Origin: a virus
Strand: one strand, 5' to 3'
Virus record (IMG/VR): IMGVR_UViG_3300043409_000145
Location: 1-39,947 of that record
Length of the DNA stretch: 39,947 nucleotides
Part shown: in pieces, positions 521 through 39,947 of the stretch
Layout: each line of letters starts with the position of its first letter
Position numbering within the stretch: the stretch's first letter is position 1
Notes under the pieces: generated by a model
Seen by the model: only the letters and a program-made list of their open reading frames with translations
The model's database searches: none
Told to the model about the DNA's origin: nothing
Translations under genes and position numbers: made by a program

Positions 521-537
521 ACTAAGGAGGGGACAAA

Positions 538-1080
538 TTGACAACGATAATTGGTATCGAGCATAAAGACGCTGCAATTATTGTTGCTGATAGTCAAACT
601 ACTGATAGTAGTGGCTTTATATATTCACATCCTAATGTTCAAAAGATTGCGGACCGAGGTCCATATCTAATTGCTGGCTCAGGTGAGGTTCTTCCTTGCG
701 ATGTAGCGCAACATATATGGGAACCACCAGTTCCAACTAAGCTAGAGAAAAAAGATTTATATCACTTTATGATTGCAAAGGCTATGCCTTCGCTTCGCAA
801 GTGTTTATCTGATAGCGGATATAACTTTGATGAGGACAATAAGGAACTTAGGTTCCAATTTATTATTGCACTCAATGGAGAAATATTTGATGTAGACCAA
901 GATTGCTCAGTATCTAAATCTGAACACGGAGTCTACGCTGCAGGTTCTGGAGCCGCATACGCACTTGGTGCATTACACGCTGGTGCTGATGCTTATCAAG
1001 CAATGGAGATTGCAAGCAAACTTACAGCATTTACAGCAGGACCTTATCTATCTAAAATTCAACCTAAACATATTAAGTAG
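538..1080 (+). CDS. HslV/proteasome beta-like Ntn hydrolase
   Basis: The 180-residue product looks like an N-terminal-nucleophile hydrolase of the proteasome beta/HslV fold. It starts MTTIIGIEHKDAAIIVADSQ. If the initiator Met is removed, Thr1 is exposed, Asp falls at position 17 and a Lys (K36 of the precursor) falls close to the Lys33 position of proteasome subunits. Two glycine turns, AGSGE (46-50) and AAGSGAAYALGA (134-145), match the family's SGSG-type strand turns. The start is TTG at 538, with a strong AGGAGG Shine-Dalgarno just upstream; this start leaves Thr directly after the Met. The gene lies straight after the portal gene, where phages usually keep the prohead protease, and I see no classical S14, S49 or S78 protease. 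A role in capsid maturation is therefore the main inference; host protein degradation is an alternative. Confidence 0.8.
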   Translation: MTTIIGIEHKDAAIIVADSQTTDSSGFIYSHPNVQKIADRGPYLIAGSGEVLPCDVAQHIWEPPVPTKLEKKDLYHFMIAKAMPSLRKCLSDSGYNFDEDNKELRFQFIIALNGEIFDVDQDCSVSKSEHGVYAAGSGAAYALGALHAGADAYQAMEIASKLTAFTAGPYLSKIQPKHIK

Positions 1081-1088
1081 GAGATACT

Positions 1089-1553
1089 GTGGCAATTACT
1101 GAAAATAGAGGCGGAGACCGCCCTACTGCTTCACAAAATAATCCTAATAATATTGGTGCTGGTGGAGGAAATACTCAAAGCGGTAAAGCTTCAGGCTTTG
1201 CATATGGTATGAACAAATCAATTAACGAGCAATCATCTCAAGGCAATGCTGCAGTAGCAGCTATGACTCCTAGTGGTGGAGCAGCTCCTGCGTTGCCTCA
1301 AGTGACTCCTATCACAGCACCGACTGAACTCCCAAACCAACCAGTAACCGATGGCGCTGCACTTGGACCTGGAATGAATACAATTCCTGGATTACCTCAA
1401 CCTCCAGTAGCTGACAATACAATATTTAATCAAAACATTGAGGCTTATCGCCCAGTATTAACTTACATTGCTAATCAACCTTCCACTTCAACAGATACTC
1501 GTAAGGTTATATCGTTACTTTTAACAACGACACCTACTGAAAATATGGCTTAA
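1089..1553 (+). CDS. Low-complexity virion-associated protein of unknown function
   Basis: I do not recognise this 154-residue protein. It starts at GTG with GGAG close upstream. The sequence is rich in Gly, Ala, Pro, Asn and Gln with no predicted membrane segment. The first 60 residues look disordered, the middle is Pro-rich, and only the last 40 residues (around NIEAYRPVLTYIANQPSTST) look as though they could fold. Its stop TAA shares a base with the ATG of the giant virion protein (TAATG), so the two are probably translationally coupled and work in the same head/ejection module. Confidence 0.7.
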   Translation: MAITENRGGDRPTASQNNPNNIGAGGGNTQSGKASGFAYGMNKSINEQSSQGNAAVAAMTPSGGAAPALPQVTPITAPTELPNQPVTDGAALGPGMNTIPGLPQPPVADNTIFNQNIEAYRPVLTYIANQPSTSTDTRKVISLLLTTTPTENMA

Positions 1554-4500
1554 TGAACGTATGGAATCGATTAGGCGACCTTGGTAAAGGCGTATTTGAC
1601 TGGACAAGAGATGTCGGCTTAGCAATAGCTTCGCCTGCAAAATTTGCCTGGGATATTACAACAGCTCCTTGGAATGACCGAGAAGAATTCAATGGTTTTC
1701 TAAGCACATTCAAACAAGCAACAGTTGACCTTGGAAAAAATGTAGGACGTCCACTAGGTGGAGTTATTGGTGCTATAGAAGCAACTAATAGAAACTTAGT
1801 TCGTGAACCTCTTAGCGCACTTGCACTTGCTGCGGGGACTGACGCAGGATGGCAAAAGGCTTGGGACAATAGAAATAAGATTTCCGTAGGTCAAGCATAT
1901 ACAAATTTACTTGGTCAAGGACTAGGAGAAATCCTACCTGATGAGCTGACTCCAAAATTTATGGATTCAGATTTTGATATTTATGATGAGAAGCAACGCA
2001 ATGAAGCTTTTAAGAAAAGCCTTTACGGTAAAGTTATTTCTGGTAGCTTTGATACTATAGCACAATTTGTTGGCGATGTTAGCATCGTCGGTGGTAAAGC
2101 TATGGTTGCATATAAAGCTGCAGACAAATCTGCAGATGCAATTGTTGCACTACGACAAGTTCGTGGTGGTATGCTAGATGATAAAGTTGCACAGAGATAC
2201 GACGCTCTTGCTGACGACTTTGCAAATAACGATATTGCTTGGGCCCTTGCTCATCCTTGGGTCAAGGCAAGTAATAACGAAGCCTCAGTTGGATACCTTC
2301 TTGGTGTAACTGCAACCAAAGAAGAAGCTATTGAAACTATGCTTGCAGTAATGGGTGATAAAAGTGGTATCCAGAGACTAGAAGATATTTCTAGACCAGA
2401 TATCGCAGCACCACTTCGTGTTGCAAATGGAGAATTAACTCGAAGCGAACTTAAAATTGTTCTTTCAGAAGAATCAAAAATTGCATCTGGTTTAGATGAT
2501 GATATGCTTCCATTTGGAACAAGAAGCCCAGAAGAAATTACAGCAGATAGAGAATATCTAGCAGCTTGGGCAAAGCACGACAAGTATGTTGACCAACTAT
2601 TTAACGTATCAGTAGAAGCTCCAGTATCTGAAGGCATTGGTCGCTTTGGACAGAGCATCGGCAAAGAAGTTGCTACTGCTAGAACAGTTCCGTTCCACGC
2701 CAAAGAAGTTGGCGAAGGAAGTATTGTCGCGTATCAACCTACATCCCTACATAAACTTTATTATAAAATTAGTTGGGGAGAAAAAGAACGCCCAGGCGGA
2801 GTTGTTAACCTAAACGAAGGTGACTCAATCCGTGAGGTTATGGCGATTACTGATAGACTTATTCAGTTGTCAAAACGCAAAGTCTTATCATCAGATAACG
2901 CACTTGTTACTAAATTTATTGTTAATCCTTTACAAAAACCAGCTAGTGCTTTGGCTCGCCCATTCCTTGGGGACAACGTATTCACTGAAATCCAAGCTCA
3001 GTCAGTTATTGAACGATATGCTGCTGCTGGAACACCAGAAGCTAGAGCTAAAGTAATTAATGACTTAGAAGCTATCGGTTATAATCTACTTGCAAAGAAA
3101 CATAACATCAGCGCAGATAATGCCCGCAAGATGTTTGATTATCATAACCAAATGCGTAGTGGTAAACTACGTGAAGCCAAAGAAGAAGGCTTTATGTGGG
3201 ATAATGAAGCTAGAGCTATGGTTAAAGTTCCAATGTTTGAATCTCAAACAGCAAACTTCCTGCCAGTTGCAGACTTTGATAAGATAGATGATGTTCTTTA
3301 CCGCAATAACAATGCAATCTCAGCAGCCTTGGGCCGTGGACACGACATCATTGGTGCAACAAGCGACCTTTGGAAGGCAGCCGTTCTACTTCGTTTAGGT
3401 TATCCTATCCGTAACGCAGCTGACTCTCAACTTCGTATCTGGGCTACTGTTGGAGCTATGGCTTCACTACGCCACGCAGGAGAAGGTGCTCGCCACTTAA
3501 GAGACAATCTATTCCCTGAGGGACAACGTCTTGTTGATAACTATAAGACAATTAAAAAGCTAAACTATGGTGAAATCAAAGCTGACCTTCAATTAACTGG
3601 TAAAGAAATTGCTACACTAGAAAAAGAAATGCCAGGATTAGAAGCAAGACTTCTTGCAGACCCAGAGAATCCAGATTTAATCGGTGAGATTGTAAACAGA
3701 AAGACCTCGCTTCGGGATAAGTTAGCACTATATGAAGCTAACAGCAATACTCTTACAAAGATTGAACAATCTAAAGTTCCTTCTCGCAAGAAGCGTATTG
3801 GAACAGATGATGTTCAACTAACATCATCCTTCCCTGGTGTAGATGGTGCTGACCATACAGTCTTTGGTGCTTTTGGTGGACCAAATGGTGGGCTGTTTAG
3901 AGAATTAAACTCATCCCAAAGAACATTTTACTCTTTACTTGAAGACTACTCCACCATATATGGTGCTAATGTAGCAAGTAAGGGACGTGGAGCTATCCGT
4001 CCTGAAGATGTTAACTATTATCAAGAGTGGTCGAATGCTATCAACGAGGTTTTTGGTAACTCAGTTGTAGCTAGAGAGCTTATGTCTGGTAAATCAATAC
4101 AAGATGTAGCTAAAGACCTAGCTGATAACCAACAACTACGAGCACGCCTTGGCTTAGCTCGTCACGAAACAGTTGAGTATGTATCTAATGCTAAACGTTT
4201 CGTTGACCAGTATGTTCCAGATGGTTATGGTTTGCGTGAAGAACTACTCGGCTCAAATATTAAATTAAAAAATCAACACCCGAATTTAACTGATTATAAA
4301 GATGGTGGTATGGGTGGATTACCAGGAACTAGAAGCGTAGTTGGATTTGTTGATACTGCTTATCTTGCTAAGATGCCTGGCAATGTTGTTGACAAAGAAG
4401 GCGTAGATTTTTATAAAGCAAAAATTCGTTCAGGTGAAGGCTTTGATAATCCAATAACTGTTTGGTATGACAATGATACTGGTCTTGCATATGTTGGAGA

Positions 4501-6706
4501 AGGAAATCATAGACTTCAAGCTGCTTTAGAAGAAGGCGTATCTGCAGTTCCCGTTAGAGTTGTTCGTGGCAGAGTAGATGCAGAAAAGAAATTAGATAGC
4601 AAAGGTATTGGTTTTTTTGCAGAAACTGTTGGCCGTGAGCCAATGCAGATTAAGAATGGAAAGACACTTCCATTCACAACACAAGGACCAACTGGCCCTG
4701 TAGAATATATGCCAACAGATGTCCACCCATCATTTATATTTGATAAAGAATTTATTGTAGACCCAAATAGTGTTGGCTCTAAGGTATCTGAAGCTAAATT
4801 GCGTGATGCAATCAAAGACCCAGGTAAACTTCCTATTGTTCACGGCCATTTGATTGATGAGAATATGGGTATGAAGACCCGTAATATGTCACGACGTATG
4901 ACAAGCTTCCTATTCAAATATCTCGCTACAATACCTGAAGATAACTGGGCACGACACCCATTGTTCATTGACCTATACCAGAAGTCAATCCAAAAGCGTT
5001 TTGAGACAGCAGAGTTCCTAAATAAGAAAGCATTTACTCGTGAAGAGTTTGCTAAGATTCAATATGATTTAGAGAAGTCAGCTAGAGCTGATGCTATGAA
5101 GGGTGTTAAAGCTACACTTTATAACGTAGAGCGCAGAACAAATGCCGCACATATGCTACGCTTCATATCACCATTCTTCTCTGCACAAGAGAATGCTGTA
5201 AAGACTTGGTTTAAGATTGCTACTGAAAAGCCAGTGATGCTTAGCCGTGCTAATATTATCTGGAATGCTCCTAACCGTCTAGGGCTAATTACTAACCCTG
5301 AGACTGGAGAACCAGTAGGTCCAGGAGACCCATTAAGTCCTAATGATACTATGTGGCTTGAAGTCCCTAATGCTATCAAGAAGCTTCCAATTATTGGAGC
5401 AGGATTATCCTCTCTTGACCAGATAGGTATAAGCAAGCGAAGCCTAGATGTTATCTTCCAAGGTAACCCATTTGGCGTTAGCGTAGGCCCATTGGCCGCT
5501 ATACCAGTATCTAATATCCTTAAGGCTAAGCCAGAACTATCAGAGATACTTGGCTTTGCATTCCCTTATGGACCAGATGCATCGATTAAACAGTTCTTGC
5601 CTACCTGGATGCGTAGAGGAACCGAACTCATCCAAGGCTTAAATAGTGATGACTATGCCAAAACATATCAATTGATTTGGATAACAGAACAACATAAAGC
5701 CCGTGATGAAGGACGTCCTTATCTAACAGATAAAGAAGTTCAAGATAAGACTAAGGCATACTACTCAATGCGTGTAGCAGCCAACATTATACTACCTTTT
5801 GCTCCACAATTCCAGAGCCCATATCGTTTCTATATGGACAAGTGGAAGGAATACAGCAAGACTTATGGTCTAGATGCTGATACAAAGTTCCTTCAAGATT
5901 ACCCAGATTACTTTGATTTTGCTACTACCCTATCAAAGAACCCTACAAACTCACAGGCAACTATGACTGATGTTGAGAACGCTAAGCGTTACTCTGGTTT
6001 GATTGGGGAAATATCAAGCGACAATGCTTCACTAGTAGGTTTGATTACTAAGGGTTCTGGTGCTGCAAAGTTCAGTCCTACAGCATACTGGTGGCAGTCA
6101 GAAACATCTATATCTGCAGGAACACCTGAGAAGTTTAGAGGTCGTCAAGACCCTAAGGAAGCTCAGGCACAGAATCAAGCTCGCCAAGGTTGGGCTAAGT
6201 ATCGCCAAGCTATGGTAATCATTGATGCTCACCTAGCACAACGTGGGCTAACATCACTGAGCCAAAACGGAGCTGAAGACTTAGCTGCTGCAAAACAACT
6301 AGTTATTCAAAGCCTTGCTTCAGAAGTTGACCCAGTATCTGGTAAATCAACTGGAACTCCTAGTGCCTGGTATCAAGCCTATAAAGATTTAGATGGAACT
6401 AAAACCATAAGAACAATAGATGGATTTAGAAAAATCATATCTGATGATACCTTTATGGCTGACAATGGAGAAGACCCTACTTGGAAGTCAGTTGCTGTGT
6501 ATATAAAATTAAGAGATGAGCTAGCGGCAACGCTAAGAAATCGACCATCAAACAATATAGACGCTCAAGAGAACTCCGATATCAAAGGAATCCTTGATTA
6601 CTATGTTAACCAATTGAAGACAGGCGATGTTGAATTCGCTACTATCTATGACAGATTCTTATCACAAGATAAGGTCTATGATAAATATCTAGGTATGGGA
6701 ATATAA
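1553..6706 (+). CDS. Giant internal virion / DNA-ejection protein with a ParB-like motif
   Basis: At 1,717 residues this is the largest gene in the window. It lies between portal and capsid genes, and no tape-measure gene is evident elsewhere, so an internal virion protein ejected with the DNA, as in short-tailed phages, is the most likely role (inference). The protein is mostly mixed helical. Around residues 945-1010 there is a ParB/Srx-like segment: a buried-strand pattern (NPITVWYDND) followed by VGEGNHRLQAALEEG (about 981-995), resembling the family's D/E-G-x-H-R box but with Asn before the His. A positively charged helical region (about 1,120-1,230) ends in RFISPFFSAQENAVKTWF, which may be amphipathic. 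I see no transglycosylase motif. A long polyvalent protein is an alternative description. Confidence 0.65.
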   Translation: MNVWNRLGDLGKGVFDWTRDVGLAIASPAKFAWDITTAPWNDREEFNGFLSTFKQATVDLGKNVGRPLGGVIGAIEATNRNLVREPLSALALAAGTDAGWQKAWDNRNKISVGQAYTNLLGQGLGEILPDELTPKFMDSDFDIYDEKQRNEAFKKSLYGKVISGSFDTIAQFVGDVSIVGGKAMVAYKAADKSADAIVALRQVRGGMLDDKVAQRYDALADDFANNDIAWALAHPWVKASNNEASVGYLLGVTATKEEAIETMLAVMGDKSGIQRLEDISRPDIAAPLRVANGELTRSELKIVLSEESKIASGLDDDMLPFGTRSPEEITADREYLAAWAKHDKYVDQLFNVSVEAPVSEGIGRFGQSIGKEVATARTVPFHAKEVGEGSIVAYQPTSLHKLYYKISWGEKERPGGVVNLNEGDSIREVMAITDRLIQLSKRKVLSSDNALVTKFIVNPLQKPASALARPFLGDNVFTEIQAQSVIERYAAAGTPEARAKVINDLEAIGYNLLAKKHNISADNARKMFDYHNQMRSGKLREAKEEGFMWDNEARAMVKVPMFESQTANFLPVADFDKIDDVLYRNNNAISAALGRGHDIIGATSDLWKAAVLLRLGYPIRNAADSQLRIWATVGAMASLRHAGEGARHLRDNLFPEGQRLVDNYKTIKKLNYGEIKADLQLTGKEIATLEKEMPGLEARLLADPENPDLIGEIVNRKTSLRDKLALYEANSNTLTKIEQSKVPSRKKRIGTDDVQLTSSFPGVDGADHTVFGAFGGPNGGLFRELNSSQRTFYSLLEDYSTIYGANVASKGRGAIRPEDVNYYQEWSNAINEVFGNSVVARELMSGKSIQDVAKDLADNQQLRARLGLARHETVEYVSNAKRFVDQYVPDGYGLREELLGSNIKLKNQHPNLTDYKDGGMGGLPGTRSVVGFVDTAYLAKMPGNVVDKEGVDFYKAKIRSGEGFDNPITVWYDNDTGLAYVGEGNHRLQAALEEGVSAVPVRVVRGRVDAEKKLDSKGIGFFAETVGREPMQIKNGKTLPFTTQGPTGPVEYMPTDVHPSFIFDKEFIVDPNSVGSKVSEAKLRDAIKDPGKLPIVHGHLIDENMGMKTRNMSRRMTSFLFKYLATIPEDNWARHPLFIDLYQKSIQKRFETAEFLNKKAFTREEFAKIQYDLEKSARADAMKGVKATLYNVERRTNAAHMLRFISPFFSAQENAVKTWFKIATEKPVMLSRANIIWNAPNRLGLITNPETGEPVGPGDPLSPNDTMWLEVPNAIKKLPIIGAGLSSLDQIGISKRSLDVIFQGNPFGVSVGPLAAIPVSNILKAKPELSEILGFAFPYGPDASIKQFLPTWMRRGTELIQGLNSDDYAKTYQLIWITEQHKARDEGRPYLTDKEVQDKTKAYYSMRVAANIILPFAPQFQSPYRFYMDKWKEYSKTYGLDADTKFLQDYPDYFDFATTLSKNPTNSQATMTDVENAKRYSGLIGEISSDNASLVGLITKGSGAAKFSPTAYWWQSETSISAGTPEKFRGRQDPKEAQAQNQARQGWAKYRQAMVIIDAHLAQRGLTSLSQNGAEDLAAAKQLVIQSLASEVDPVSGKSTGTPSAWYQAYKDLDGTKTIRTIDGFRKIISDDTFMADNGEDPTWKSVAVYIKLRDELAATLRNRPSNNIDAQENSDIKGILDYYVNQLKTGDVEFATIYDRFLSQDKVYDKYLGMGI

Positions 6707-6707
6707 T

Positions 6708-7772
6708 ATGGCATTGACACAAAAGCAACAAGACCAAATTAGTAATCTTCAAAAGAAGCAGAACAGCCTTAAATACCAAATCCGTGGCTTACAAGACATT
6801 GAATTTGAATTATCTGCAGATGCCAAAGTTGGCAACCAAGCTCAAATAAAGAAACTCAAAGAACAACTTAAGCAACTTCCTAAGCAAATAGATGATGTTA
6901 GAAATGCTGAGAAATATAAAGCTGAAGGCAAAGACTCTGCTGGTAAAATAGTAGTAGCTTCTAATGCCCCTGCTAATATATCTGCAAGCGTCCTGGCTGA
7001 CCTTGTATCAACACTTGGACCTAGCTTTAATCCTGGTGAAACTTCAACCTGGTTTGCTAATGGTATCGGTAGCAATGCTTTAGTTTATACTGGTCAATTA
7101 GCAGGAGAAGCTGCCACTCGCACTATCCCTTCTGGCAAAGGTATTGGCAAGGTTTCTATAGCAACAACTGGGGCTCCCAAAGATAATATCCAAGCTGTCA
7201 CTACTTTAACTGCTAGCTTCTGGACTGATACTGCATTACAAAATAAAATTATAAACTCATACGCAGCTAAGGGTCAAACAATAAGTAAGATTCAAGCTTC
7301 TGTAGTATGGGGTGAGTTAGTAACCAAGGCTGGTCAAATCTACGCAGGTGGCCGTGGGCCAAAGATTACTCCTATGGATTTGTTCGCTGACCAGATGGCT
7401 TCTATGAAGGGCGATGAAGCTGCTCTTCCACAAAGGTCAATTCAAAAGATTGACCCAATTGTAATCAAAGACTTTGTTAGTGGTATTTACGAAAAGACTC
7501 TTGGTCGCGTTGCGACTGATGATGAAAAGAACCAATGGTATTCGCAACTGAAGCCAGCCATTGAAGGTGGAACTGTCACCGAAACAAAGAAGATTAAGAA
7601 CAAGAAGACTGGCAAACTGGAGAATGTTTCAACTACTACTCCTGGGTTTAACCAACAAGCTACTCAAATTAGTATTGAACAAAAACTTAAAGAAGCTAAT
7701 CCAGATGACTATGACCGTCAAAAGCGTATGGACTTCTCAACGTGGTTATCACAGAATGTGGCAGGTGCATAA
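6708..7772 (+). CDS. Probable virion protein with N-terminal coiled coil and DUF4214-like segment
   Basis: This 354-residue protein starts one base after the previous stop. Residues 1-70 form a strongly heptad-patterned coiled coil (QKQQDQISNLQKKQNSLKYQ onward). Residues about 90-230 are a soluble mixed region. Near residues 255-275 the segment FVSGIYEKTLGRVATDDEKN resembles the DUF4214-type helical repeat often found in phage structural proteins. A Lys-rich charged stretch follows (KKIKNKKTGK). The three consecutive genes from here to 10096 are tightly packed and probably encode components of one internal head or tail complex. The exact function is unknown. Confidence 0.65.
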   Translation: MALTQKQQDQISNLQKKQNSLKYQIRGLQDIEFELSADAKVGNQAQIKKLKEQLKQLPKQIDDVRNAEKYKAEGKDSAGKIVVASNAPANISASVLADLVSTLGPSFNPGETSTWFANGIGSNALVYTGQLAGEAATRTIPSGKGIGKVSIATTGAPKDNIQAVTTLTASFWTDTALQNKIINSYAAKGQTISKIQASVVWGELVTKAGQIYAGGRGPKITPMDLFADQMASMKGDEAALPQRSIQKIDPIVIKDFVSGIYEKTLGRVATDDEKNQWYSQLKPAIEGGTVTETKKIKNKKTGKLENVSTTTPGFNQQATQISIEQKLKEANPDDYDRQKRMDFSTWLSQNVAGA

Positions 7773-8645
7773 GTGACCCCAGAAGAAATAGCTAACGCTG
7801 GTATAGAGGCTGCTGCTGGATATGGTATATCCGAAGCTTTACTTGCTATGCATCCAGAACTTAATTATGTTTATCAGTTGTTTAAATCTGGTCAAAAGAC
7901 TAAAGCAATTGAAGAGTTATTTAAAACCCCATTCTATAAGAACACAAATAGTGTTGTCAAAGCCCGCGAGAAGATGCGTCTTGAGCAGGAACCAGCTTAC
8001 CAGAACGAAGTTAGTAAGTATAAATTAGCTGCTAGAAAAAGACTTGTCACCTCTGGTGTAAAGATAGATGAAGCAACATTTAATACCCTTGCTGAGAAAG
8101 CTTACAAGGATGGATTAGATGATAATCAATTCGACCAAAGCGTTATGGCTACTGGAAAGATTACTGGCTATGGTGGTAATGTCCTTGGAGATACCTCAAC
8201 ATTAAAATCTTTTGCTAATTCATTTGGTGTATCTGGTCTTTTGAATCAAGCTTACTGGAGCGGAAAGTCAAGTCAGTTATTTGCTGGCACAACAACAACT
8301 GAAGATATTGAACAAGAAATTAAAATCTTAGCAGCCAGTGCTTTCCCAGGTTATGCTGAAGGTATTATGAATGGCGTATCCTTGGATGTTCAAGCATCAA
8401 ACATTATACAAACTGTATCTACATACCTAGAACTAGACCCTAACGGTCTATCATACCAGGATGAGACAGTCAAAAAGATGTTACAATACATTGACCCAGC
8501 TACTGGCAAGCCAGGCAAGATGCCACAATGGTTAGCTGAACAAACCGTTAAGTCTGACCCAAGATGGGGCAAGACTAAGAATGCACAGAATACAATTGAT
8601 AGTTTAATTACTAAAGTTGGAAGAGACTACGGATTGGTTTACTAA
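7773..8645 (+). CDS. Probable internal virion protein, helical
   Basis: The 290-residue product starts at GTG immediately after the previous TAA and ends in TAATG overlap with the next gene, so the three genes are translationally coupled. It is helical and soluble, with no signal peptide. It contains LFKTPFYKNTNS (about residues 48-59), followed by a helix with QEPAYQNEV. The next gene has an analogous element (QETPEYKQRFSA), suggesting a shared helical module. The last 40 residues contain an aromatic, basic end (DPRWGKTKN). No catalytic motif is visible. Function unknown; head or ejection-complex component by position. Confidence 0.6.
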   Translation: MTPEEIANAGIEAAAGYGISEALLAMHPELNYVYQLFKSGQKTKAIEELFKTPFYKNTNSVVKAREKMRLEQEPAYQNEVSKYKLAARKRLVTSGVKIDEATFNTLAEKAYKDGLDDNQFDQSVMATGKITGYGGNVLGDTSTLKSFANSFGVSGLLNQAYWSGKSSQLFAGTTTTEDIEQEIKILAASAFPGYAEGIMNGVSLDVQASNIIQTVSTYLELDPNGLSYQDETVKKMLQYIDPATGKPGKMPQWLAEQTVKSDPRWGKTKNAQNTIDSLITKVGRDYGLVY

Positions 8646-10096
8646 TGGCAACTCCTAAAATTTATGGTCCTCTAGCTGATGTAGGTTTTAGTGCTGCGGC
8701 TGCAAAGCCAAAACCTAAAACTGTAGCAGAACTTAAGGCAGACATAGCAGCTACGCAAAAAATAGCAGAAGCGGCTGTAGCAAAGGCAGAAGCATCTGTT
8801 GTAAAAATGGACCCAGCATATGGTGTTGATTTAGCAAAGCAAGTTTTAGCTGCAACATCGCCAGGCTCAGCAGAATACACTGCTGCATTAAGAGCTAAGA
8901 CTTTGGCTCAAACAAACTTAGACCAAACCAATGCAGTTAAGCCTCAATTAGATGCTGTCAGCCAAGCCCGCGGAGATAGCTATTCTTGGGATACAGCAAA
9001 TAAAAAATGGAATGTTATTAAAGGTCCTAACCAGGTATCAACTACTTGGGACAGTGTAAATAATAAATGGGTTATTTCAAGCGGTGGAATAGGTGGTAGC
9101 GGCACTCCTCCTGGTGGTGGCACAGGTGGTGGAACTCCTCCTGGTAGTGGAAACTTAAACACTGGTTTAGACTCTGCTACACAAAATTTAATTAATTCAT
9201 TACAGCAACAAGTTGAATCTTTAACTGCAGCTCAGAACAATACAATTGCTGCTGACACAGCTATGAAAGAATCAGCTCGTCAAGATGCTTTAGCAGCATT
9301 GACTGATAGATTTGCTAAGTTTGGATTGTCAAGTCTTGTATCTAAGATTAAAGAACTAGCTATCACTGGAGCATCAGAAGCTACAATCTCTTTGCAACTT
9401 CAAGAGACTCCTGAATATAAGCAACGCTTTAGTGCTAATGAGATTCGTTTGAAGAAGGGCCTAACAGTTCTTTCTCCAGCAGAATATCTAGCTAATGAAG
9501 ATAGATACCGTCAAGCACTACGTGCTTACGGATTGACTCAGTTTGACAATGATGCTTATGTTTCTCAGTTTATTGCTAACGATGTATCACCAACTGAATT
9601 ATCAAATAGAATTGTTACAGCAGTGCAGCGCGTTCAGAATGCTGACCCAGCAGTTGCTAAGCAACTTAAAGATTATTATAATATAGGACAGACAGACCTT
9701 GTAGCCTACGTGCTAGACCCAGAACAACAATTCCAAAAGATTGAACGTCAAGTTGCTGCAGCTGAAATTGGTGTAGCTGCTGGAAGACAAGGACTACAAG
9801 CTGGAGTCGGTGTAGCTGAGCAACTAGCAGCCCAAGGTGTCACTCAAGCAGAAGCTCAAAAGGGCTATGCAACTATCGCAGATATTCTACCTACAGCTGA
9901 AAAGCTGAGTGGTATTTATGGAACAACCCTAGAGGGTTATAACCAAGCCTCTGCAGAACAAGAAGTATTTAACTCTCTTGCATCTGCGCAACGTGCTCGT
10001 CAGAAACTGACAGCTCGAGAGCTTGCACAATTCTCTGGTTCAACTGGAACAGGGAAAGCTTCCCTAGCCCAAGGAAAGACAGCAGGACAAATATAG
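8645..10096 (+). CDS. Probable internal virion protein with Gly-rich linker
   Basis: This is a 483-residue protein of three parts. Residues 1-105 are an Ala/Lys-rich helical region. Then come two WD-type short repeats (YSWDTANKKWNVI and TTWDSVNNKWVIS) that resemble each other, probably small beta units. A Gly/Pro linker follows at about 148-170. The C-terminal 310 residues are helical, Ala/Gln-rich and end in QFSGSTGTGKASLAQGK. It shares a TPxYK-type element with the preceding gene. By position just upstream of scaffold and capsid genes it may be a minor head or ejection protein. I know no specific family for it. Confidence 0.6.
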   Translation: MATPKIYGPLADVGFSAAAAKPKPKTVAELKADIAATQKIAEAAVAKAEASVVKMDPAYGVDLAKQVLAATSPGSAEYTAALRAKTLAQTNLDQTNAVKPQLDAVSQARGDSYSWDTANKKWNVIKGPNQVSTTWDSVNNKWVISSGGIGGSGTPPGGGTGGGTPPGSGNLNTGLDSATQNLINSLQQQVESLTAAQNNTIAADTAMKESARQDALAALTDRFAKFGLSSLVSKIKELAITGASEATISLQLQETPEYKQRFSANEIRLKKGLTVLSPAEYLANEDRYRQALRAYGLTQFDNDAYVSQFIANDVSPTELSNRIVTAVQRVQNADPAVAKQLKDYYNIGQTDLVAYVLDPEQQFQKIERQVAAAEIGVAAGRQGLQAGVGVAEQLAAQGVTQAEAQKGYATIADILPTAEKLSGIYGTTLEGYNQASAEQEVFNSLASAQRARQKLTARELAQFSGSTGTGKASLAQGKTAGQI

Positions 10097-10216: not shown

Positions 10217-10696
10217 ATGAGCAACAACTACTGGGATGAAGACGAAGACGACTTAGATATCGAGTCAGATGCACCGATGGATGGAAGTGACTTACTTAAA
10301 AAGTTACGTAAAGCCAAACGCGCAGATGAAAAGCGTATCAAAGAACTCACTGAGCAACTTGAGGGTTTCTCCAAGGAGCAGCGTGAGCGGACCGTCAAAG
10401 AAGTCCTAGAAAAGAAGGGTGTAAATCCTAAAGCAGTTAGACTAATCCTTAAAGACTTAGATACTGTTAACGAAGAATCAGTTAATAACTGGCTCGACGA
10501 TAACGGAGATTTGTTTGGGTTAACTCAATCGCAGGAAGCATCTAAGGTAAGTGACATTGACCGTGCTGCATTACGCCAGCAAGACAGTGTTACACAAGGT
10601 GCACTTACACCTGACAAAGCCGAAGACTTGAATATGAGACTCAACAATGCTGAATCAGCAGAAGAGATTATATCACTTCTTCGCTCACAACAATAA
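10217..10696 (+). CDS. Capsid scaffolding protein
   Basis: The 159-residue product is highly charged: an acidic N-terminus (NNYWDEDEDDLDIESDAP), a Lys/Glu/Arg-rich helix (about 24-75) with coiled-coil character, and a short helical C-terminus ending LLRSQQ. The size, charge, helicity and location directly before the major capsid gene are typical of internal scaffolds that direct procapsid assembly and then leave or are degraded. The C-terminal helix would be the capsid-binding end by analogy. If the HslV-like enzyme is the head protease, this is its likeliest substrate (inference). Confidence 0.8.
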   Translation: MSNNYWDEDEDDLDIESDAPMDGSDLLKKLRKAKRADEKRIKELTEQLEGFSKEQRERTVKEVLEKKGVNPKAVRLILKDLDTVNEESVNNWLDDNGDLFGLTQSQEASKVSDIDRAALRQQDSVTQGALTPDKAEDLNMRLNNAESAEEIISLLRSQQ

Positions 10697-10731: not shown

Positions 10732-11685
10732 ATGGCTAACACCTACGTAACAACAGGTTCGTCCTCACTAGGAGGAACCGCTGGTAGTGCTGGTCTGGTC
10801 CAGAAGGCGTATGACCGTCTTCTAGAATTCGCTCTCCGCTCTGAACCACTTATTCGTTCAGTCGCAGATAAGCGCCCAACCAATCAATCTACTCCTGGCT
10901 CAACAGTCGTTTTACAACGCTATGTTGACCTATCCGCTGCAACTACAGCTCTCACAGAAGATGCTGACCCAGATGCAGTAGCAATGTCCACACCAACAAC
11001 AGTAACTATTACTCTTAACGAGTATGGTAACTCAGTGTTGGTAACACGTGCGTTGGAACTATTCAGCCTGGCTGATGTAGACCCAGCAATCGCTAACATT
11101 ATTGCATTCAACCTTGCAGATTCAATTGACTCAGTCGCGATGACAACTCTTCGCGGTGGAACAAACGTAATCTACTCAGGTTCAACAGCAACATCAACAG
11201 CAACAATTACTGCTGCTGCAACAATTTCTTCTGCTAACATCCGTAAGGCTGTTGCGAAGTTACGTGCAGGTAAGTCAGTTGCCCGTAAGGGTTCACTATA
11301 CTGGGCTGGTATCCACCCAGAAGTTTCACACGACCTTCGTGCTGAGACAGGTTCTGCTGGCTGGTTGCTTCCAAACCAATATGGTTCTGCACAAGACCGT
11401 ATCTGGGCTGGAGAAATCGGACAATATGAAGGTGCATACTTCGTAGAATCTCCACGTCTTTACAACGCAACAGATGGTGCTTCATCAGCACGCAACTACC
11501 GCACAATTATTGCTGGACAACAAGCACTTGCAGAAGCAGTTGCTGAAGAGCCACACGTAGTTATCGGACCAGTTGTCGATAAGTTGATGCGTCACCGCCC
11601 AATGGGTTGGTATGGCGTTCTAGGGTTTGCTCGCTACCGCGAAGAAGCACTATACCGAATCGAATCAGGTTCATCAATCGCTTAG
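10732..11685 (+). CDS. Major capsid protein, N4-gp56-like
   Basis: The 317-residue product fits the N4-gp56 family of HK97-fold major capsid proteins. Visible family features are an N-terminal arm rich in Gly/Ser/Thr, a beta stretch VVLQRYVDLS, the helix region LELFSLADVDPAIANIIAFN, and the C-terminal WAGEIGQYEGAYFVESPRLY block followed by GQQALAEAV. Codon use is more biased towards C-ending codons than in neighbouring genes, as is common for a highly expressed gene. It follows the scaffold gene with its own strong ribosome binding site, and a large hairpin follows its stop. No N-terminal delta domain is visible, in keeping with a separate scaffold protein. Confidence 0.88.
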   Translation: MANTYVTTGSSSLGGTAGSAGLVQKAYDRLLEFALRSEPLIRSVADKRPTNQSTPGSTVVLQRYVDLSAATTALTEDADPDAVAMSTPTTVTITLNEYGNSVLVTRALELFSLADVDPAIANIIAFNLADSIDSVAMTTLRGGTNVIYSGSTATSTATITAAATISSANIRKAVAKLRAGKSVARKGSLYWAGIHPEVSHDLRAETGSAGWLLPNQYGSAQDRIWAGEIGQYEGAYFVESPRLYNATDGASSARNYRTIIAGQQALAEAVAEEPHVVIGPVVDKLMRHRPMGWYGVLGFARYREEALYRIESGSSIA

Positions 11686-11758: not shown

Positions 11759-12028
11759 ATGGCAGATTACATCTTTAAGACACCTATAGTCCGAGAAGGA
11801 CCAGCAGGTGGTGGTAGATTGTTCCATTTCTATAAACTAAATGTAGCCGTCAGTATCGCTAAGAGTGGCGGAGTGTATTCTCAAGTTCGTTATGTTCTTG
11901 ATGACACAATGGATGACTATCAAGAATTTTATATTGGTGGACGTAACCATATAGTTAATGATGCTACTAAAGCAGCACTAATTGCTGGTGGCGTAGGAGT
12001 AACAGAAGCAAACTTTACAGCAGTATAA
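11759..12028 (+). CDS. Small conserved-type head protein, function unknown
   Basis: This 89-residue protein begins MADYIFKTPIVREGPAGGG and ends GVTEANFTAV. It is predicted to be mostly beta with an aromatic core (FHFYKLNV, YQEFYIGG) and no Cys. Genes of this appearance are common after the capsid gene of actinobacterial phages, but I know no function. The start has a GGAG site (ctaaggagaact) seven bases upstream. Candidate roles are head decoration or head completion; the evidence is position only. Confidence 0.65.
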   Translation: MADYIFKTPIVREGPAGGGRLFHFYKLNVAVSIAKSGGVYSQVRYVLDDTMDDYQEFYIGGRNHIVNDATKAALIAGGVGVTEANFTAV

Positions 12029-13036: not shown

Positions 13037-13756
13037 ATGGAAGAAACAGTATCAATCGCTTGGTGCGATAATGGTATGGTGGACGGTAAGTTTATGCAAG
13101 GTGTTACAGATGTGATGCTCCATTCAGGAGTTCCATTTGCTACTACCTTGCGCAGTCAAGGCAACCAGATAGGCAGACAACGAGAGACTATTGTCAACTA
13201 TTGGTTTAACAACAAGAAGTCTGATTGGCTACTATGGGTAGACTCAGATGTAGTTATAAGCCCAGAGGTATTCCTAAAACTCTGGAAGAAGAAGGATGCT
13301 CTAACTAAGCCACTTCTTACTGGCGTATACTTCACCACAGATACCCCAGAAGAGCCTTTAATGGTCCCAATGCCGACTGTATTTGAGTTCGTCAATGAAG
13401 AGAACAGCGTAGGAATCAAACGCCTACATCCCCTCCCTGAGAACCAATTCTTGAAGGTAGGAGCAGCAGGTATGGGATTCGTCCTAATGCACCGCAGCGT
13501 GGTTGAGAAGATTAAGGAAGCAGTTCCTGGAGCACCACTCTTTACAGAGATTGGTGTAGATAAATCCTTTATGGGAGAAGACATCTACTTCTTTGCTCTA
13601 TGCGATAAGGCTGATATCCCCGTATGGTGTGATACCTCAGCACTTGTTCCGCATATGAAACGCTTCTCATTTGATGAGCATTACTACAAAGCATTTATGG
13701 GTGCTCCTGCAAAGGAACAACCTAAGTCAAAGATTATTACGCCTAACAGAAAATAA
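13037..13756 (+). CDS. Glycosyltransferase family 2-like (GT-A fold)
   Basis: This 239-residue protein has the layout of a short GT-A glycosyltransferase. There is an N-terminal nucleotide-binding strand region, a helix with the RQRETIVNYWF phrase, the metal-binding DxD motif in LLWVDSDVV (D69 and D71), a Gly-rich acceptor turn (KVGAAGMGFVLMHR) and a late GEDIYFF motif (about 177-183) that matches the usual catalytic E/D-D position. It is encoded among head and connector genes, so it may glycosylate a virion protein; modification of the host surface is the alternative. It has no signal or membrane segment. Sugar donor and target cannot be read from sequence. Confidence 0.82.
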   Translation: MEETVSIAWCDNGMVDGKFMQGVTDVMLHSGVPFATTLRSQGNQIGRQRETIVNYWFNNKKSDWLLWVDSDVVISPEVFLKLWKKKDALTKPLLTGVYFTTDTPEEPLMVPMPTVFEFVNEENSVGIKRLHPLPENQFLKVGAAGMGFVLMHRSVVEKIKEAVPGAPLFTEIGVDKSFMGEDIYFFALCDKADIPVWCDTSALVPHMKRFSFDEHYYKAFMGAPAKEQPKSKIITPNRK

Positions 13757-30996: not shown

Positions 30997-31388
30997 TAGT
31001 GCCACTTTTTCCTCTCGAAGTGTTGCCACGCATTACAAGGTGTATCGTAGCGGTAGTAAATATAATCCAAGCCACGTTCTATCTGTAATGGTGGTGGTGT
31101 GTTAGGGTTAAGCCCTAGTAGTTGGGGTATACCGCCTGCGTTCTTGCCCATAACTTTAATTTTATTGTAAGCCTTGGGATTCCACGCTGACTCTTTACCC
31201 CATAACCTACTAAGGCATAGCCATTGTTTATCTTGCCACTTGTGTAGCATATCACGGGCGTAAGCCCTGCTATCTGCTTCACTCCACGAAGTCTGAACAC
31301 CTGCTTTTTTAGTTTGCGGTTCGCTTGTTGGAGTATCAAATAGAACTAGTGATACCGACACAAATAGTAAGAATAGTAGTGCTCTCAT
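30996..31388 (-). CDS. Secreted lytic transglycosylase-like protein
   Basis: The 130-residue product has a signal peptide (MRALLFLLFVSVSLVLFDT) and a lysozyme-like domain. RLWGKESAWNPKAYNK gives the catalytic Glu (E66), GKNAGGIPQLLGLNP the conserved Gly/Gln loop, and LQIERGLDYIYYRY plus the final aromatic block the end of the fold. This matches actinobacterial secreted transglycosylases more than phage endolysins. Two Cys (58 and 118) may form a disulfide. It is made early and exported by the host, so it may aid wall loosening or block superinfection rather than cause lysis. The start overlaps WhiB's stop (ATGA). Confidence 0.8.
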   Translation of the reverse strand: MRALLFLLFVSVSLVLFDTPTSEPQTKKAGVQTSWSEADSRAYARDMLHKWQDKQWLCLSRLWGKESAWNPKAYNKIKVMGKNAGGIPQLLGLNPNTPPPLQIERGLDYIYYRYDTPCNAWQHFERKKWH

Positions 31389-31771
31389 TTCAATCTCCCT
31401 GCTCTGATTAAGCCAGCGAATCTTACCTTATGTCTTCGATAGTCGCTAGCCCCGACGGCATTGGCACTAGCCAATCTCTCACCCGAGGTAAGCCCACCCC
31501 ATATGCCCCACTCTAAATTCTCAGGGCGCATACCTTCATCAAGGCAAGCAGACTTCGACGGACACCTATCGCATATGCGTAGTGCTAGGCGTGAATCTTT
31601 TATAGACTTATTCATCTCAGCCTTAGTCGCCCTGCCACTAGTTTCAGTATCAGGATAATCATTCCACCATAGGTTAGGGTCGAACTCTTTACTAGAGCAT
31701 AGTCCTACTATGTTAATTGCTGGTATCTCTAGTCTAGGTTTTTTATTAGGTATACCTGCTCGTCTACCCAT
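31385..31771 (-). CDS. WhiB-family iron-sulfur transcription regulator
   Basis: A 128-residue protein with the four cluster Cys of WhiB proteins: C25, C67, C70 and C76 (ICDRCPSKSACLDEG), the GIWGG turn (89-93) and a basic C-terminal helix (YRRHKVRFAGLIRAGRLK). A short basic N-terminal extension (MGRRAGIPNKKPR) precedes the domain. WhiB regulators bind the host sigma factor and DNA and are confined to actinobacteria and their phages, which is the best host evidence in this window. It could redirect host transcription or exclude other phages. Confidence 0.92.
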   Translation of the reverse strand: MGRRAGIPNKKPRLEIPAINIVGLCSSKEFDPNLWWNDYPDTETSGRATKAEMNKSIKDSRLALRICDRCPSKSACLDEGMRPENLEWGIWGGLTSGERLASANAVGASDYRRHKVRFAGLIRAGRLK

Positions 31772-32306: not shown

Positions 32307-33140
32307 TTAGTAGAAGTCTGCTAGACTTCGTTGGCTCTTCCACATACCCTTAGGGGTATAGCATAAGCAATCCACTAACACCGACTCGCAATCGAAGCAG
32401 GTGTCGCATAGTTCGCAAAAGTATTCACTCTCGTTAAGGTCGATGAGTGCTTGACAAAACGGGCAGAAGTCTAAGGCTTCCGAAGTTTCATCTATCACAT
32501 CTAACACGGGATAATCTTTATATTCTTTAGCCCAATACTCGTTATCATAGAAGGCGATAGGGGGTGGGGTGTAAGCAACACGCTTGTGGGAACTGTTACT
32601 CCACCACACGCCGTCGCTATCCCAACTACCTAAGTTCTCGTTGATGATATACATCTGGCTACCCGCACTAGGGTCTAGGTTAAGCACCGCTATCTTGCTA
32701 CCACTAGCCCACTTGCTAAGCATACTCCATATAGTATCGTCATCTAGCGAAGCAACACCACCTATCTTCGGTAGTATATCTTCGGCTAGGATACGGCTAT
32801 CGCTACGCTTATCACCTTCTGGTATTGCTACATCTAGTATACCATTGTGCGCTAGGTAAGTCAAGTCGCTATCGCCTACCTTGAACGGGTGGCAATTCTC
32901 TTCGTTCTTTACTCCGTGCGTGGCGTATCTTGCGTGCCACATAGCATAGTCATTCGGATATTGCTCACGCAATTCTAAGAAGCGTTTGATAGACTTCTTA
33001 GCCGACATACTACGCTCGGATATAATCTTACCACCTGCTACGATAGCAAAACCATAGCCGTGCGGATTACTACAAGCACCTGCGTGTAGTTCTTCTTGTT
33101 TAGGTATGCCGTTAGGCTCACACACTACAAGTAGACACAT
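32307..33140 (-). CDS. Class II glutamine amidotransferase with C-terminal zinc ribbon
   Basis: The 277-residue protein starts Met-Cys (MCLLVVCEPNG), so removal of Met exposes the catalytic Cys of the Ntn-type glutaminase. Supporting motifs are the oxyanion/glutamine-binding MWHARYATHG (67-76), CHPF (83-86) and the strand YLAHNGIL (95-102). The usual fused synthase or sugar-isomerase domain is absent. From about 228 on there is a Cys cluster (DFCPFCQA, CELCDTCFDC) forming a zinc ribbon. It would release ammonia from glutamine. It lies next to and downstream of the amidoligase, so ammonia may be passed to a ligation reaction. Confidence 0.85.
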   Translation of the reverse strand: MCLLVVCEPNGIPKQEELHAGACSNPHGYGFAIVAGGKIISERSMSAKKSIKRFLELREQYPNDYAMWHARYATHGVKNEENCHPFKVGDSDLTYLAHNGILDVAIPEGDKRSDSRILAEDILPKIGGVASLDDDTIWSMLSKWASGSKIAVLNLDPSAGSQMYIINENLGSWDSDGVWWSNSSHKRVAYTPPPIAFYDNEYWAKEYKDYPVLDVIDETSEALDFCPFCQALIDLNESEYFCELCDTCFDCESVLVDCLCYTPKGMWKSQRSLADFY

Positions 33141-33153
33141 ACTATCACCCCCT

Positions 33154-34440
33154 CTAGGCGTTCATTACTGCTGGTCGGTTAATATCCACGCCACTTATCT
33201 TGTTTAGTCGCGTGTATAGGTCGGGATATAGCCCGTTGTTCTGGGCTACATAGTCGGCGAACCAAGCCCACGATAGTGCGCCACGCTTGACATCATCTAA
33301 GCGTAGGTCGCGGGTATATTCTACCAACGCTTGTGCTAAGTCTAGGGAAGATAGAACACTACTTGTGTTCATAGTTCCCTTAAAGAAGCGCAACTCTAGT
33401 GTGTCGCGGTTATTGGTATTGACCGCACTATATCTTTCGGTGGACTCACCATACTTTACCTTGTGCTTTAGTGAGAACACGGGCTTGTCATACTCATCGA
33501 AGGTATAGACATCGTTGAACCTAGCATAGCGGGACTTGCGACCCGCGAATTTCATCATCATCTCGGAGTTCTTATAGACCATAGATAAGAAGCGGTGCGT
33601 GTGTGCCCCGCCACTAAACCCTGCTCTACTTATATGGATATGAAGCCCGCAGGTTTCGGTATCCCAACTTCTAGCACCATAGTCGGCGCGTAGTGTATCT
33701 ATGGTATCCCATAGTATCTTAGAATTATCTCGGTATTCTAGGTGTGAGTGCGGTTCGGTAACTATCTCGAAGCCTTGACTACCTATACTGCCATCTTGTT
33801 TAAGCATAGCGATACCTTGTAGGTTAGTCGAAGCATAGTTAGAAGCACCACTATAATCACCCTTACTACCACCTTCGATTACTGTTTCCAACTCGAAGCC
33901 TAGATAGACTCCGTGTTTAGACACACCCTTGAAAGTAACAGGTGGCTTACAATTATAGTCGTGAACTACACTACGGCAACGGCAAGGGCGACCACTTACA
34001 CCCTCTCGACATTCGCAAGGGTCTTCATCGTAGTAACTCTCATCGCACTCATCGCAGTAGTAGCAATACCTACTGAAGCAATGCTCGCAAACAGTATCAT
34101 CGCCTACACAAGAGTAATCATTGTCATTACTATAACTATTCTCGCATTGGCTACAATGAAAGGTGTTATACTCATAGCAACTACGACACCATTGTTCATC
34201 ATCTACACTATAAGTATCATCTCTATCTATACCGCTATCGCAACGCTGGCACTCGGTAGAACACTCTTCACACCATAGTTCTTCACTAACCCACCGAAGT
34301 CTATCGGTGGAGTGAACGCCTCTACAATTACCACAAGCATTAGCACAATCTTCACAATAATAGTCGCCGTTCATCTCTAAGTTCATATCGGCAGGATTAC
34401 TACAATCGTGGCACTCTATCTCGTTCTCATCATCTTCCAT
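33154..34440 (-). CDS. Amidoligase with N-terminal array of zinc ribbons
   Basis: The 428-residue protein has two halves. Residues 8-165 hold about 30 Cys in successive CxxC pairs (CHDC, CEDC, CGNC, CEEC, CQRC, CRSC, CSQC, CEHC, CYYC), a LIM-like or ribbon array. Residues about 175-428 match the phage amidoligase family (Amidoligase_2, glutamine-synthetase-like fold): GVYLGFELETVIEGG (E183, E185), KQDGSIGSQGFEIVTEP (214-230), CGLHIHISR (264-272), FAGRKSRYAR, and the ELRFFKGT strand. These give the metal- and ATP-binding Glu and His set. It should form an amide or peptide bond at ATP cost, acceptor unknown; the Cys array may bind the target. Confidence 0.85.
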   Translation of the reverse strand: MEDDENEIECHDCSNPADMNLEMNGDYYCEDCANACGNCRGVHSTDRLRWVSEELWCEECSTECQRCDSGIDRDDTYSVDDEQWCRSCYEYNTFHCSQCENSYSNDNDYSCVGDDTVCEHCFSRYCYYCDECDESYYDEDPCECREGVSGRPCRCRSVVHDYNCKPPVTFKGVSKHGVYLGFELETVIEGGSKGDYSGASNYASTNLQGIAMLKQDGSIGSQGFEIVTEPHSHLEYRDNSKILWDTIDTLRADYGARSWDTETCGLHIHISRAGFSGGAHTHRFLSMVYKNSEMMMKFAGRKSRYARFNDVYTFDEYDKPVFSLKHKVKYGESTERYSAVNTNNRDTLELRFFKGTMNTSSVLSSLDLAQALVEYTRDLRLDDVKRGALSWAWFADYVAQNNGLYPDLYTRLNKISGVDINRPAVMNA

Positions 34441-38488: not shown

Positions 38489-39947
38489 ATGGCATTAACA
38501 ATGGAACAGGTAACAGCTAGAGTTGAATCTCTACGTTATCGTAATCACGAACGTGATTCTCGCAACCTTGACGTCCTTGCTGTCCGTAAAGGCAAAATTG
38601 CTGAGGTATACCCAGACTTCTTTCCAGATGGTGTAGATGCTAACGTAGTAGCTAACTTTATTGATATCGTTGCACGCGACCTATCTGAAGTTATGGCTCC
38701 ACTTCCAGCAGTAAACTGCTCCGCAGCTAATCAGGTTTCTGATAGAGCTCGCACATTTGCTGACAAGCGCACACGTATTGCTTCTAATTACTTTGCCCAC
38801 TCAGACCTAGCAGTTCAAATGTATTCAGGTGCTGACTGGTATATCACATATGGTTTCGTTCCGTTTATGATTGAACTGGACGATGAAAGCAATCTGCCTC
38901 GCATCCGCATAGAAAACCCAATAGGTGCTTACCCAGAATTTGACCGCTATGGTCGATGCATTGCTTTTGCAAAACGTTACACAATGTCACTTGGCGAACT
39001 TGTTTCACAATTCCCTGACTACGAGCGTGAACTACTTGGTGGCTACGGCTACAAGCAGGACCTCAACACTCAGGTTGAAATGATTCGCTATTACGATAAA
39101 GACCAATCAATCATCTACATCCCAAACAAGCAGAATCTTGTATTATCAAGAGCTGCTAATCCACTTGGAAAGATGATGGTTATTGTTGCACGTAAGCCAT
39201 CCATTGATGGAGAGCTTCGTGGACAGTTCGACGACATTTTAGGAATTCAACTTCTTCGTAACCGTTTTGCTTTACTAGCTATGGAAGCTGCAGAGAAATC
39301 TGTTCAGGCCCCTATAGTTCTTCCACAAGATGTTCAAGAACTACAACTTGGTGGAGATGCGGTTATTCGCACATCTAACCCAGCTGGTGTTCGTCGTGTA
39401 GATTTGAATATCCCAGCAGGCGCATTTACTGAACAATCATTATTAAATCAAGAACTTCGTGTTGGTTCTCGTTATCCAGAATCACGCACAGGAAATATCA
39501 ACGCATCAGTTGTTACTGGCCAAGGCGTTCAAGCTCTTATGGGAGCTTTTGATACCCAGGTTAAATCAGCTCAAGCAATCTTTGCTGCAGCTTTGCGTGA
39601 TGTTATTAGCCTTTGTTTTGAAGTTGATGAAACAATCTACCCTGAAGAAAAGACAATTCGTGGTGTTGACTCAGGTTCACCTTACGAAGTAACATATAAG
39701 CCAGTTAAAGATATCAAGCAAGATTACTCAGCTGATGTCCGTTACGGAATGCTTGCTGGTCTTAACCCAGCTCAAGGTCTTATCTTTATGCTACAAGCAC
39801 TTGGTGGTGGATTAATCTCCAAGGATATGGCAATGCGTGAACTTCCATTCACAGTCAACGTCACGTCAGAACTAGAGAAAATTGAAATCGAGAATATGCG
39901 TCAAGCGTTACTTGGTTCACTTACCGCCTACACTCAAGCAATTCCAC
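38489..39947 (+). CDS. Portal protein, N-terminal part (continues at window start)
   Basis: Starts ATG 38489 (MALTMEQVTARVESLRYRNH) with a GGAC-type site upstream and runs off the window end without a stop. It rejoins at base 2 in the same frame. The N-terminal region is helical with RNLDVLAVRKGKIAEVYPDF. A beta-rich wing follows (IRIENPIGAYPEFDRYGRCI). Then comes a long helical part with a conserved-looking SRYPESRTGNINASVVTGQG segment near residue 330, typical of portal stems. The position after the terminase supports the assignment. Confidence 0.8.
   Translation, partial: MALTMEQVTARVESLRYRNHERDSRNLDVLAVRKGKIAEVYPDFFPDGVDANVVANFIDIVARDLSEVMAPLPAVNCSAANQVSDRARTFADKRTRIASNYFAHSDLAVQMYSGADWYITYGFVPFMIELDDESNLPRIRIENPIGAYPEFDRYGRCIAFAKRYTMSLGELVSQFPDYERELLGGYGYKQDLNTQVEMIRYYDKDQSIIYIPNKQNLVLSRAANPLGKMMVIVARKPSIDGELRGQFDDILGIQLLRNRFALLAMEAAEKSVQAPIVLPQDVQELQLGGDAVIRTSNPAGVRRVDLNIPAGAFTEQSLLNQELRVGSRYPESRTGNINASVVTGQGVQALMGAFDTQVKSAQAIFAAALRDVISLCFEVDETIYPEEKTIRGVDSGSPYEVTYKPVKDIKQDYSADVRYGMLAGLNPAQGLIFMLQALGGGLISKDMAMRELPFTVNVTSELEKIEIENMRQALLGSLTAYTQAIP
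39739..39947. repeat. Terminal overlap, right copy
   Basis: Copy of bases 1-209 with one mismatch at 39820 (c versus g at 82). See the left copy. Removing one copy gives a circle of 39,738 bp with the portal frame intact. Confidence 0.97.

Follow-up and report, generated by a model that had tools for sequence, protein, structure and literature searches.

A proteasome-type threonine peptidase gene in an exchangeable slot behind the phage portal gene, probably encoding an accessory rather than a capsid-maturing enzyme

Combining family profiles, a predicted structure and locus comparisons among metagenomic relatives, our work here identifies the open reading frame at positions 538 to 1080 (forward strand) of a 39,947-base virus record, analysed over its full length and called the window below, as a real gene for a proteasome-type threonine peptidase, and places it in a slot behind the portal gene whose content is exchanged between phages. 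We favour the interpretation, to which we assign a probability of about 0.6, that the product is a stand-alone peptidase of the BPH/HslV kind, carried in an exchangeable slot of the late operon and performing an accessory job inside the cell that head maturation does not need. It is the exchangeability of the slot that leads us to an accessory intracellular role and to a head maturation independent of the enzyme, which is thus probably an interchangeable accessory protease rather than one that matures the capsid. The initial annotation of this DNA had proposed the opposite, a threonine-protease fold used for head maturation; its description of the protein and of its genomic surroundings stands, and the maturation role finds no support.

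The encoded Ntn hydrolase has 180 residues and begins MTTIIG from a TTG codon, 5 nt downstream of the ribosome-binding site AAGGAGGGG (524 to 532, forward strand, read directly). That this start sets Thr directly after Met, as first annotated, is upheld by the relatives, which share the start residue (ATG in 182 of 185, GTG in 2 and TTG in 1) and so rule out a wrongly chosen start codon. The family assignment draws on several libraries: PHROG 1040 ("peptidase HslV family") matches residues 1-169 at E 7.9e-29, the Pfam Proteasome model PF00227 scores 23.9 bits against a cut-off of 22.4 with a match confined to residues 2-41, and a profile built from 30 relatives finds BPH (E 1.6e-9) and HslV (E 2e-7) among solved structures; the NCBIfam HslV models give 22.6 and 21.7 bits, below their cut-offs of 137 and 157.75. 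Thr2, Asp18 and Lys36, which correspond to Thr1, Asp17 and Lys33 of the proteasome family, are invariant in all 231 complete homologues (167 of them distinct), confirming the Asp and Lys noted earlier at proteasome-like positions, and the same holds for Gly49, which an alignment with HslV equates with the oxyanion-hole glycine Gly47. A two-residue loop insertion shifts the lysine relative to Lys33, and serine occupies the position equivalent to Ser129 in 196 of the 231, threonine in the other 35. Random pairs of homologues at 80-98.5% identity give a median dN/dS of 0.067 (5-95% range 0.039-0.148; 600 pairs, two saturated pairs left out), indicating strong purifying selection. A chance open reading frame is ruled out by the family match, the predicted fold and this selection taken together. 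Judged from sequence and model, the protein looks active, a predicted threonine peptidase on the HslV/BPH branch of the proteasome family, and Thr2 would be its nucleophile once Met is removed. Were the protein a decoy or a catalytically inactive subunit that disturbs a host proteasome or HslV, neither the invariant triad nor such selection would be needed, and we consider this exceedingly improbable, even though an actinobacterial host, likely from the WhiB-type transcription factor gene in the window (31385-31771, reverse strand; PF02467, E 1.1e-8), would suit such a role. Actinobacteria frequently have a 20S proteasome.

The AlphaFold2 model of the protein (pLDDT 92.9, pTM 0.89) has the Ntn sandwich. 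Foldseek aligns it with BPH 5ovs at E 1.8e-11, and comparison with BPH 5ovt gives a Z of 19.1 and an rmsd of 2.7 over 164 aligned residues at 25% identity, with model residue 2 falling on chain residue 1; HslV structures reach a Z of 18.0, so that the HslV/proteasome-like fold proposed from the sequence is reproduced by the prediction. Helices are modelled at residues 51-60 and 70-92, and the loop that leads from the second of these to the next strand (about residues 93-106) measures 14-18 residues and carries a net negative charge in all 231 homologues. For BPH, section 3.3 of PMC8665760 describes a pore loop that is long and acidic, alongside the apparent absence of an unfoldase, and for HslV a very short one. 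An unfoldase of the AAA_2 (HslU/ClpX) type, PF07724, was found in none of eight phage records, as against 14 of 14 controls, and the sole AAA-family match in the window is a DnaB-like ATPase.

The ends of the record overlap by 209 bp at 99.5%, and the portal gene runs across them. It is therefore split in the window into an N-terminal part (38489 to 39947), an open reading frame whose homologues are annotated as portal in Streptomyces phages and which the end overlap connects, and a C-terminal part (2 to 520; PHROG 104 portal, E 3.6e-6), after whose stop the slot begins. Its right-hand border is the gene for a 154-residue phrog_8200 protein (1089 to 1553; E 4.2e-13), a homologue of FlowerPower gp07. 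There follow the gene for a large protein of 1717 residues (1553 to 6706; phrog_10618, phrog_1033) and three genes for proteins of 354, 290 and 483 residues (6708 to 10096), all putative internal virion proteins by their position; a ParB-like stretch (phrog_1033, E 1.3e-5) occupies residues 947-1012 of the large one. Next come a putative scaffolding protein of 159 residues (10217 to 10696), which belongs to phrog_7813, the family that also precedes the major capsid protein gene of FlowerPower, and has a weak DUF4355 scaffold match under the cut-off, and the major capsid protein, of N4 type (10732 to 11685; Phage_capsid_3, phrog_1357). All these genes lie on the forward strand, and the Ntn gene stands, as originally described, between the portal gene and the putative virion genes. 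The late genes also include a glycosyltransferase-like gene (13037-13756; phrog_34859). Far from the slot, on the reverse strand, the window encodes a second likely Ntn hydrolase (32307-33140), a class II glutamine amidotransferase-like protein with a Met-Cys start that scores just under Pfam cut-offs; it adjoins an Amidoligase_2 gene (33154-34440, reverse strand), and the two are possibly a peptide-modifying pair.

Scans of IMG/VR for relatives of the Ntn protein returned 217 and at least 581 matches with two peptide-pattern sets and 144 for a distant branch, the 80 best matches of each being retained. At 55% single linkage they form four groups of 148, 73, 9 and 1 members, and identity to the window's protein falls to about 32% as the preceding portal stays at about 80-98%. 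A profile scan of bacterial and archaeal genome contigs gave no relative, and an origin as a prophage or host copy was set aside accordingly. Among the matches listed, every one of the 173 testable loci selected through the Ntn gene has it within 1.2 kb behind the portal gene; in one of the relatives (L196) it follows a premature portal stop at a distance of 447 nt. Such a selection presupposes the gene, and contigs were therefore also picked by their portal gene. This search gave 80 loci, from which 7 already found through the Ntn gene were left out against bias; of the 73 new loci, some overlapping contigs fetched earlier and kept with that redundancy, 10 were excluded for having less than 900 nt beyond the portal or an open portal gene. 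In the remaining 63, the slot holds the Ntn gene in 46 and an unrelated small gene, s77, in 17, never both and never neither. Three loci (L215, L225, L245) were counted as Ntn-bearing after inspection, and two others (L178, L184), which have the Ntn gene and no portal match, stand outside the counts. On a portal tree, built quickly and weak at many of its forks, the slot takes five states with a minimum of 15 changes among them, at least 3 of these being between the small gene and the Ntn gene.

The small protein that takes the slot in these 17 loci (for example at 11786-12013 of locus L220, and at the equivalent site in 16 others) has 73-79 residues, is probably helical with an acidic C-terminal tail, and has no enzyme features. 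Its structure model is of low confidence (pLDDT 67.6), and searches of Pfam, PHROG, NCBIfam and PADLOC gave no convincing match; a replacement protease in the slot of Ntn-less phages was discarded as a candidate on this ground. In two divergent Ntn groups, an open reading frame of 79-84 codons overlaps the Ntn stop by 4 nt (7444-7698 of L121, 10543-10785 of L173, and 32 further loci). It has no family match, and the overlap suggests translational coupling and a partner protein.

How does the head fare where the enzyme is missing? The Ntn-less phage G001 (also L350) is metagenomic and the only near-full-length record among the Ntn-less relatives searched whole; its 37,481 bp contain no match to the Ntn protein. 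In the major capsid protein G001 shares 97.5% identity over 314 columns with L003, a phage whose Ntn protein is itself 95% identical to that of the window; in the scaffold it shares 96.2% identity over 158 residues with the Ntn phage L132. The N-termini of capsid protein and scaffold are alike in sequence with and without the enzyme, with no difference that would point to a propeptide. In two further Ntn-less phages (L351, L352) the capsid protein, more distant and with a similar N-terminus, has 397 residues against about 315, through an insertion or an extra domain.

The nearest annotated isolates are Streptomyces phages of the Beephvirinae, with portal proteins 42-45% and capsid proteins 53-56% identical to those of the window. 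Their gene order is terminase, portal, a phrog_8200 gene, a very large gene, a phrog_7813 gene and the major capsid protein gene (families checked in FlowerPower), and in FlowerPower several small genes of 52-71 codons lie between the portal and phrog_8200 genes. No Ntn gene was found in the records of FlowerPower, Manuel and Abafar, searched whole, or in any of the 67 testable loci whose portals resemble that of FlowerPower. Abafar is described as a podovirus by electron microscopy (PMC11536984). That the Beephvirinae do without the gene means that the enzyme is dispensable for this type of capsid.

These comparisons decide against a prohead protease that cleaves scaffold, capsid protein or both, which we regard as highly unlikely. 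The position in the head operon speaks for it, as does the finding that no protease of the S78, S14/ClpP or S49 type was detected in 11 records including the window and G001, in line with the initial annotation, which had found no standard capsid protease. Yet the role is unsupported, because the small gene replaces the Ntn gene in 17 of 63 loci and near-identical capsid proteins and scaffolds occur without it; isolates with homologous scaffold, capsid protein and portal lack the enzyme, the N-termini show no difference, and the scaffold is a separate small gene, apart from any protease, in front of a capsid protein of N4 type. As an obligatory head protease, the Ntn protein is ruled out by the portal-chosen loci and the Beephvirinae. 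The missing capsid protease is probably normal for a module of scaffold plus N4-type capsid and not a gap for the Ntn protein to fill. A Salmonella jumbo phage carries two HslV ORFs together with three separate prohead serine protease ORFs (PMC7823757), which again argues against this function, and among open-licence PMC papers we found none that links head maturation to a phage protein of the HslV kind. In the N4-like phage DEV, residues 1-399 of the coat protein are built in the mature head (PMC10925440). As phmmer found no PDB relative of the window's capsid protein at E 0.1, its only tie to DEV is the N4-type name, taken from the Abafar annotation, and DEV was dropped as a direct analogue.

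A role in building the particle other than cleavage of scaffold or capsid deserves closer weighing. The threonine peptidase might take part in the particle building of a freshwater podovirus by trimming internal proteins or by being packaged with them, with the phages that lack it using a small charged protein at that site, and we hold this to be a tentative possibility; if true, no earlier case of a threonine protease acting in virion morphogenesis or ejection is known to us, and a search of open-licence PMC papers gave none. In the specific form that the enzyme processes internal, ejected virion proteins during head assembly, such as the 1717-residue protein or its neighbours, it appears unlikely. 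Among the matches listed, every testable Ntn locus has the gene in a fixed place immediately before those for the putative internal proteins, and the large protein of Ntn-less phages differs markedly from that of Ntn phages; since identity between them is at most 50%, the comparison leaves a possible link between the enzyme and an internal protein intact. Against this, the type of the Ntn protein and that of the large protein are uncoupled: L146 and L155 have Ntn proteins 40-41% and large proteins 59-61% like the window's, and L003, with its Ntn protein at 95%, has a large protein of 22% identity over the piece found. Moreover, full-length homologues of the large protein at 46-50% identity occur both with the enzyme (L091, L017) and without it (L257, L213), and the Beephvirinae keep a gene of similar size in the same order and have no Ntn gene.

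We find it quite improbable that the enzyme is packaged in the virion and ejected so that, early in infection, it degrades a host protein of defence or regulation. Its late-operon place between the portal and the putative internal proteins would fit packaging, and the exchangeable, divergent content of the slot resembles that of genes under host-driven diversification. Set against these points, the Ntn protein matches no PADLOC model, in a library of defence and not of anti-defence systems, and elsewhere the family is found among nucleotide-metabolism or small accessory genes.

We therefore return to an accessory intracellular peptidase and suggest how it may work. Met1 would be removed by the host methionine aminopeptidase, which would free Thr2, and subunits may stack as a double ring resembling that of HslV or BPH. 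The ring might accept peptides or unfolded proteins without ATP, or else borrow a host ATPase; the ATP-free variant is proposed because the phage encodes no unfoldase and its pore loop resembles that of BPH in being long and acidic. The enzyme would be made late, as a passenger of the portal-to-capsid operon, and its job may be to clear or trim polypeptides, of the host or of the phage, during that late phase, with the content of the slot swapped between phages for one of four divergent Ntn types or for the small protein. Two points count against an accessory role: the constant place next to the portal gene is unusual for a free accessory gene, and the small protein could replace the function of the Ntn protein in some way.

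Homologues of the proteasome are already known from phages and widespread there; what is new is the placement next to the portal and the either/or slot. We found no paper, among open-licence PMC papers, on the function of any phage proteasome homologue. The lineage described here provides a natural either/or experiment, with several hundred metagenomic relatives, heads that are nearly identical whether or not the enzyme is present, and one defined gene as the alternative, and thereby makes the role of a stand-alone phage proteasome subunit directly testable; it also removes a tempting annotation as a capsid protease that is probably wrong. Fuchs et al. 2021 (PMC8665760), who describe 22 new proteasome-like subfamilies with PPH and AAH in phages among them, report no actinobacteria-specific phage with an AAH-type homologue, a negative result on which the present group of phages, with both a WhiB gene and an HslV/BPH-like homologue, has a bearing.

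Like the Ntn protein, PPH and AAH are described as phage-borne, stand-alone proteasome homologues on the HslV/BPH side (group I; PMC8665760), AAH being compared here by its published description alone. PPH has about 140 residues and no helix H2, whereas the Ntn protein has 180 and a modelled helix at 70-92 in that place (PMC8665760). Other phage members of PHROG 1040 (in T5-like phages, DSL-LC01, D'Alembert, Geobacillus E3 and others) share the profile family, a similar length and an N-terminal Thr start. In all eight annotated records of unrelated phages that we inspected (DSL-LC01, AAS21, D'Alembert, Pumpernickel, Hum25, EPS7, Vibrio 3.058.O and Geobacillus E3), however, the HslV-like gene lies away from the head genes, in contrast to the window's lineage, where it is fixed behind the portal and alternates with a small gene. 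In four of the eight (AAS21, Pumpernickel, EPS7 and Geobacillus E3; L083, L345, L347 and L349) thymidylate synthase is near, the HslV-like genes adjoining or lying near thymidylate synthase or DHFR. BPH (5ovs, 5ovt, 5ovu) is the best match by structure and by profile, with an acidic pore loop in both proteins, but it is cellular and not of phage origin, and its identity to the Ntn protein, compared as a monomer model, is 25% at most. HslV (ClpQ) of HslUV has the same fold, size and triad; in contrast to it, the Ntn protein falls far under the NCBIfam cut-offs, has a longer, acidic pore loop and meets no HslU encoded in the phage, and a host HslU may be its partner. Known prohead proteases are of the S78 type (HK97), the S14 and S49 types (ClpP- or SppA-like) and the S77 type (T4). 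The Ntn gene resembles them in its position in the head operon, but its product differs from them in fold and catalytic residues, and the near-identical capsids of sister phages dispense with it.
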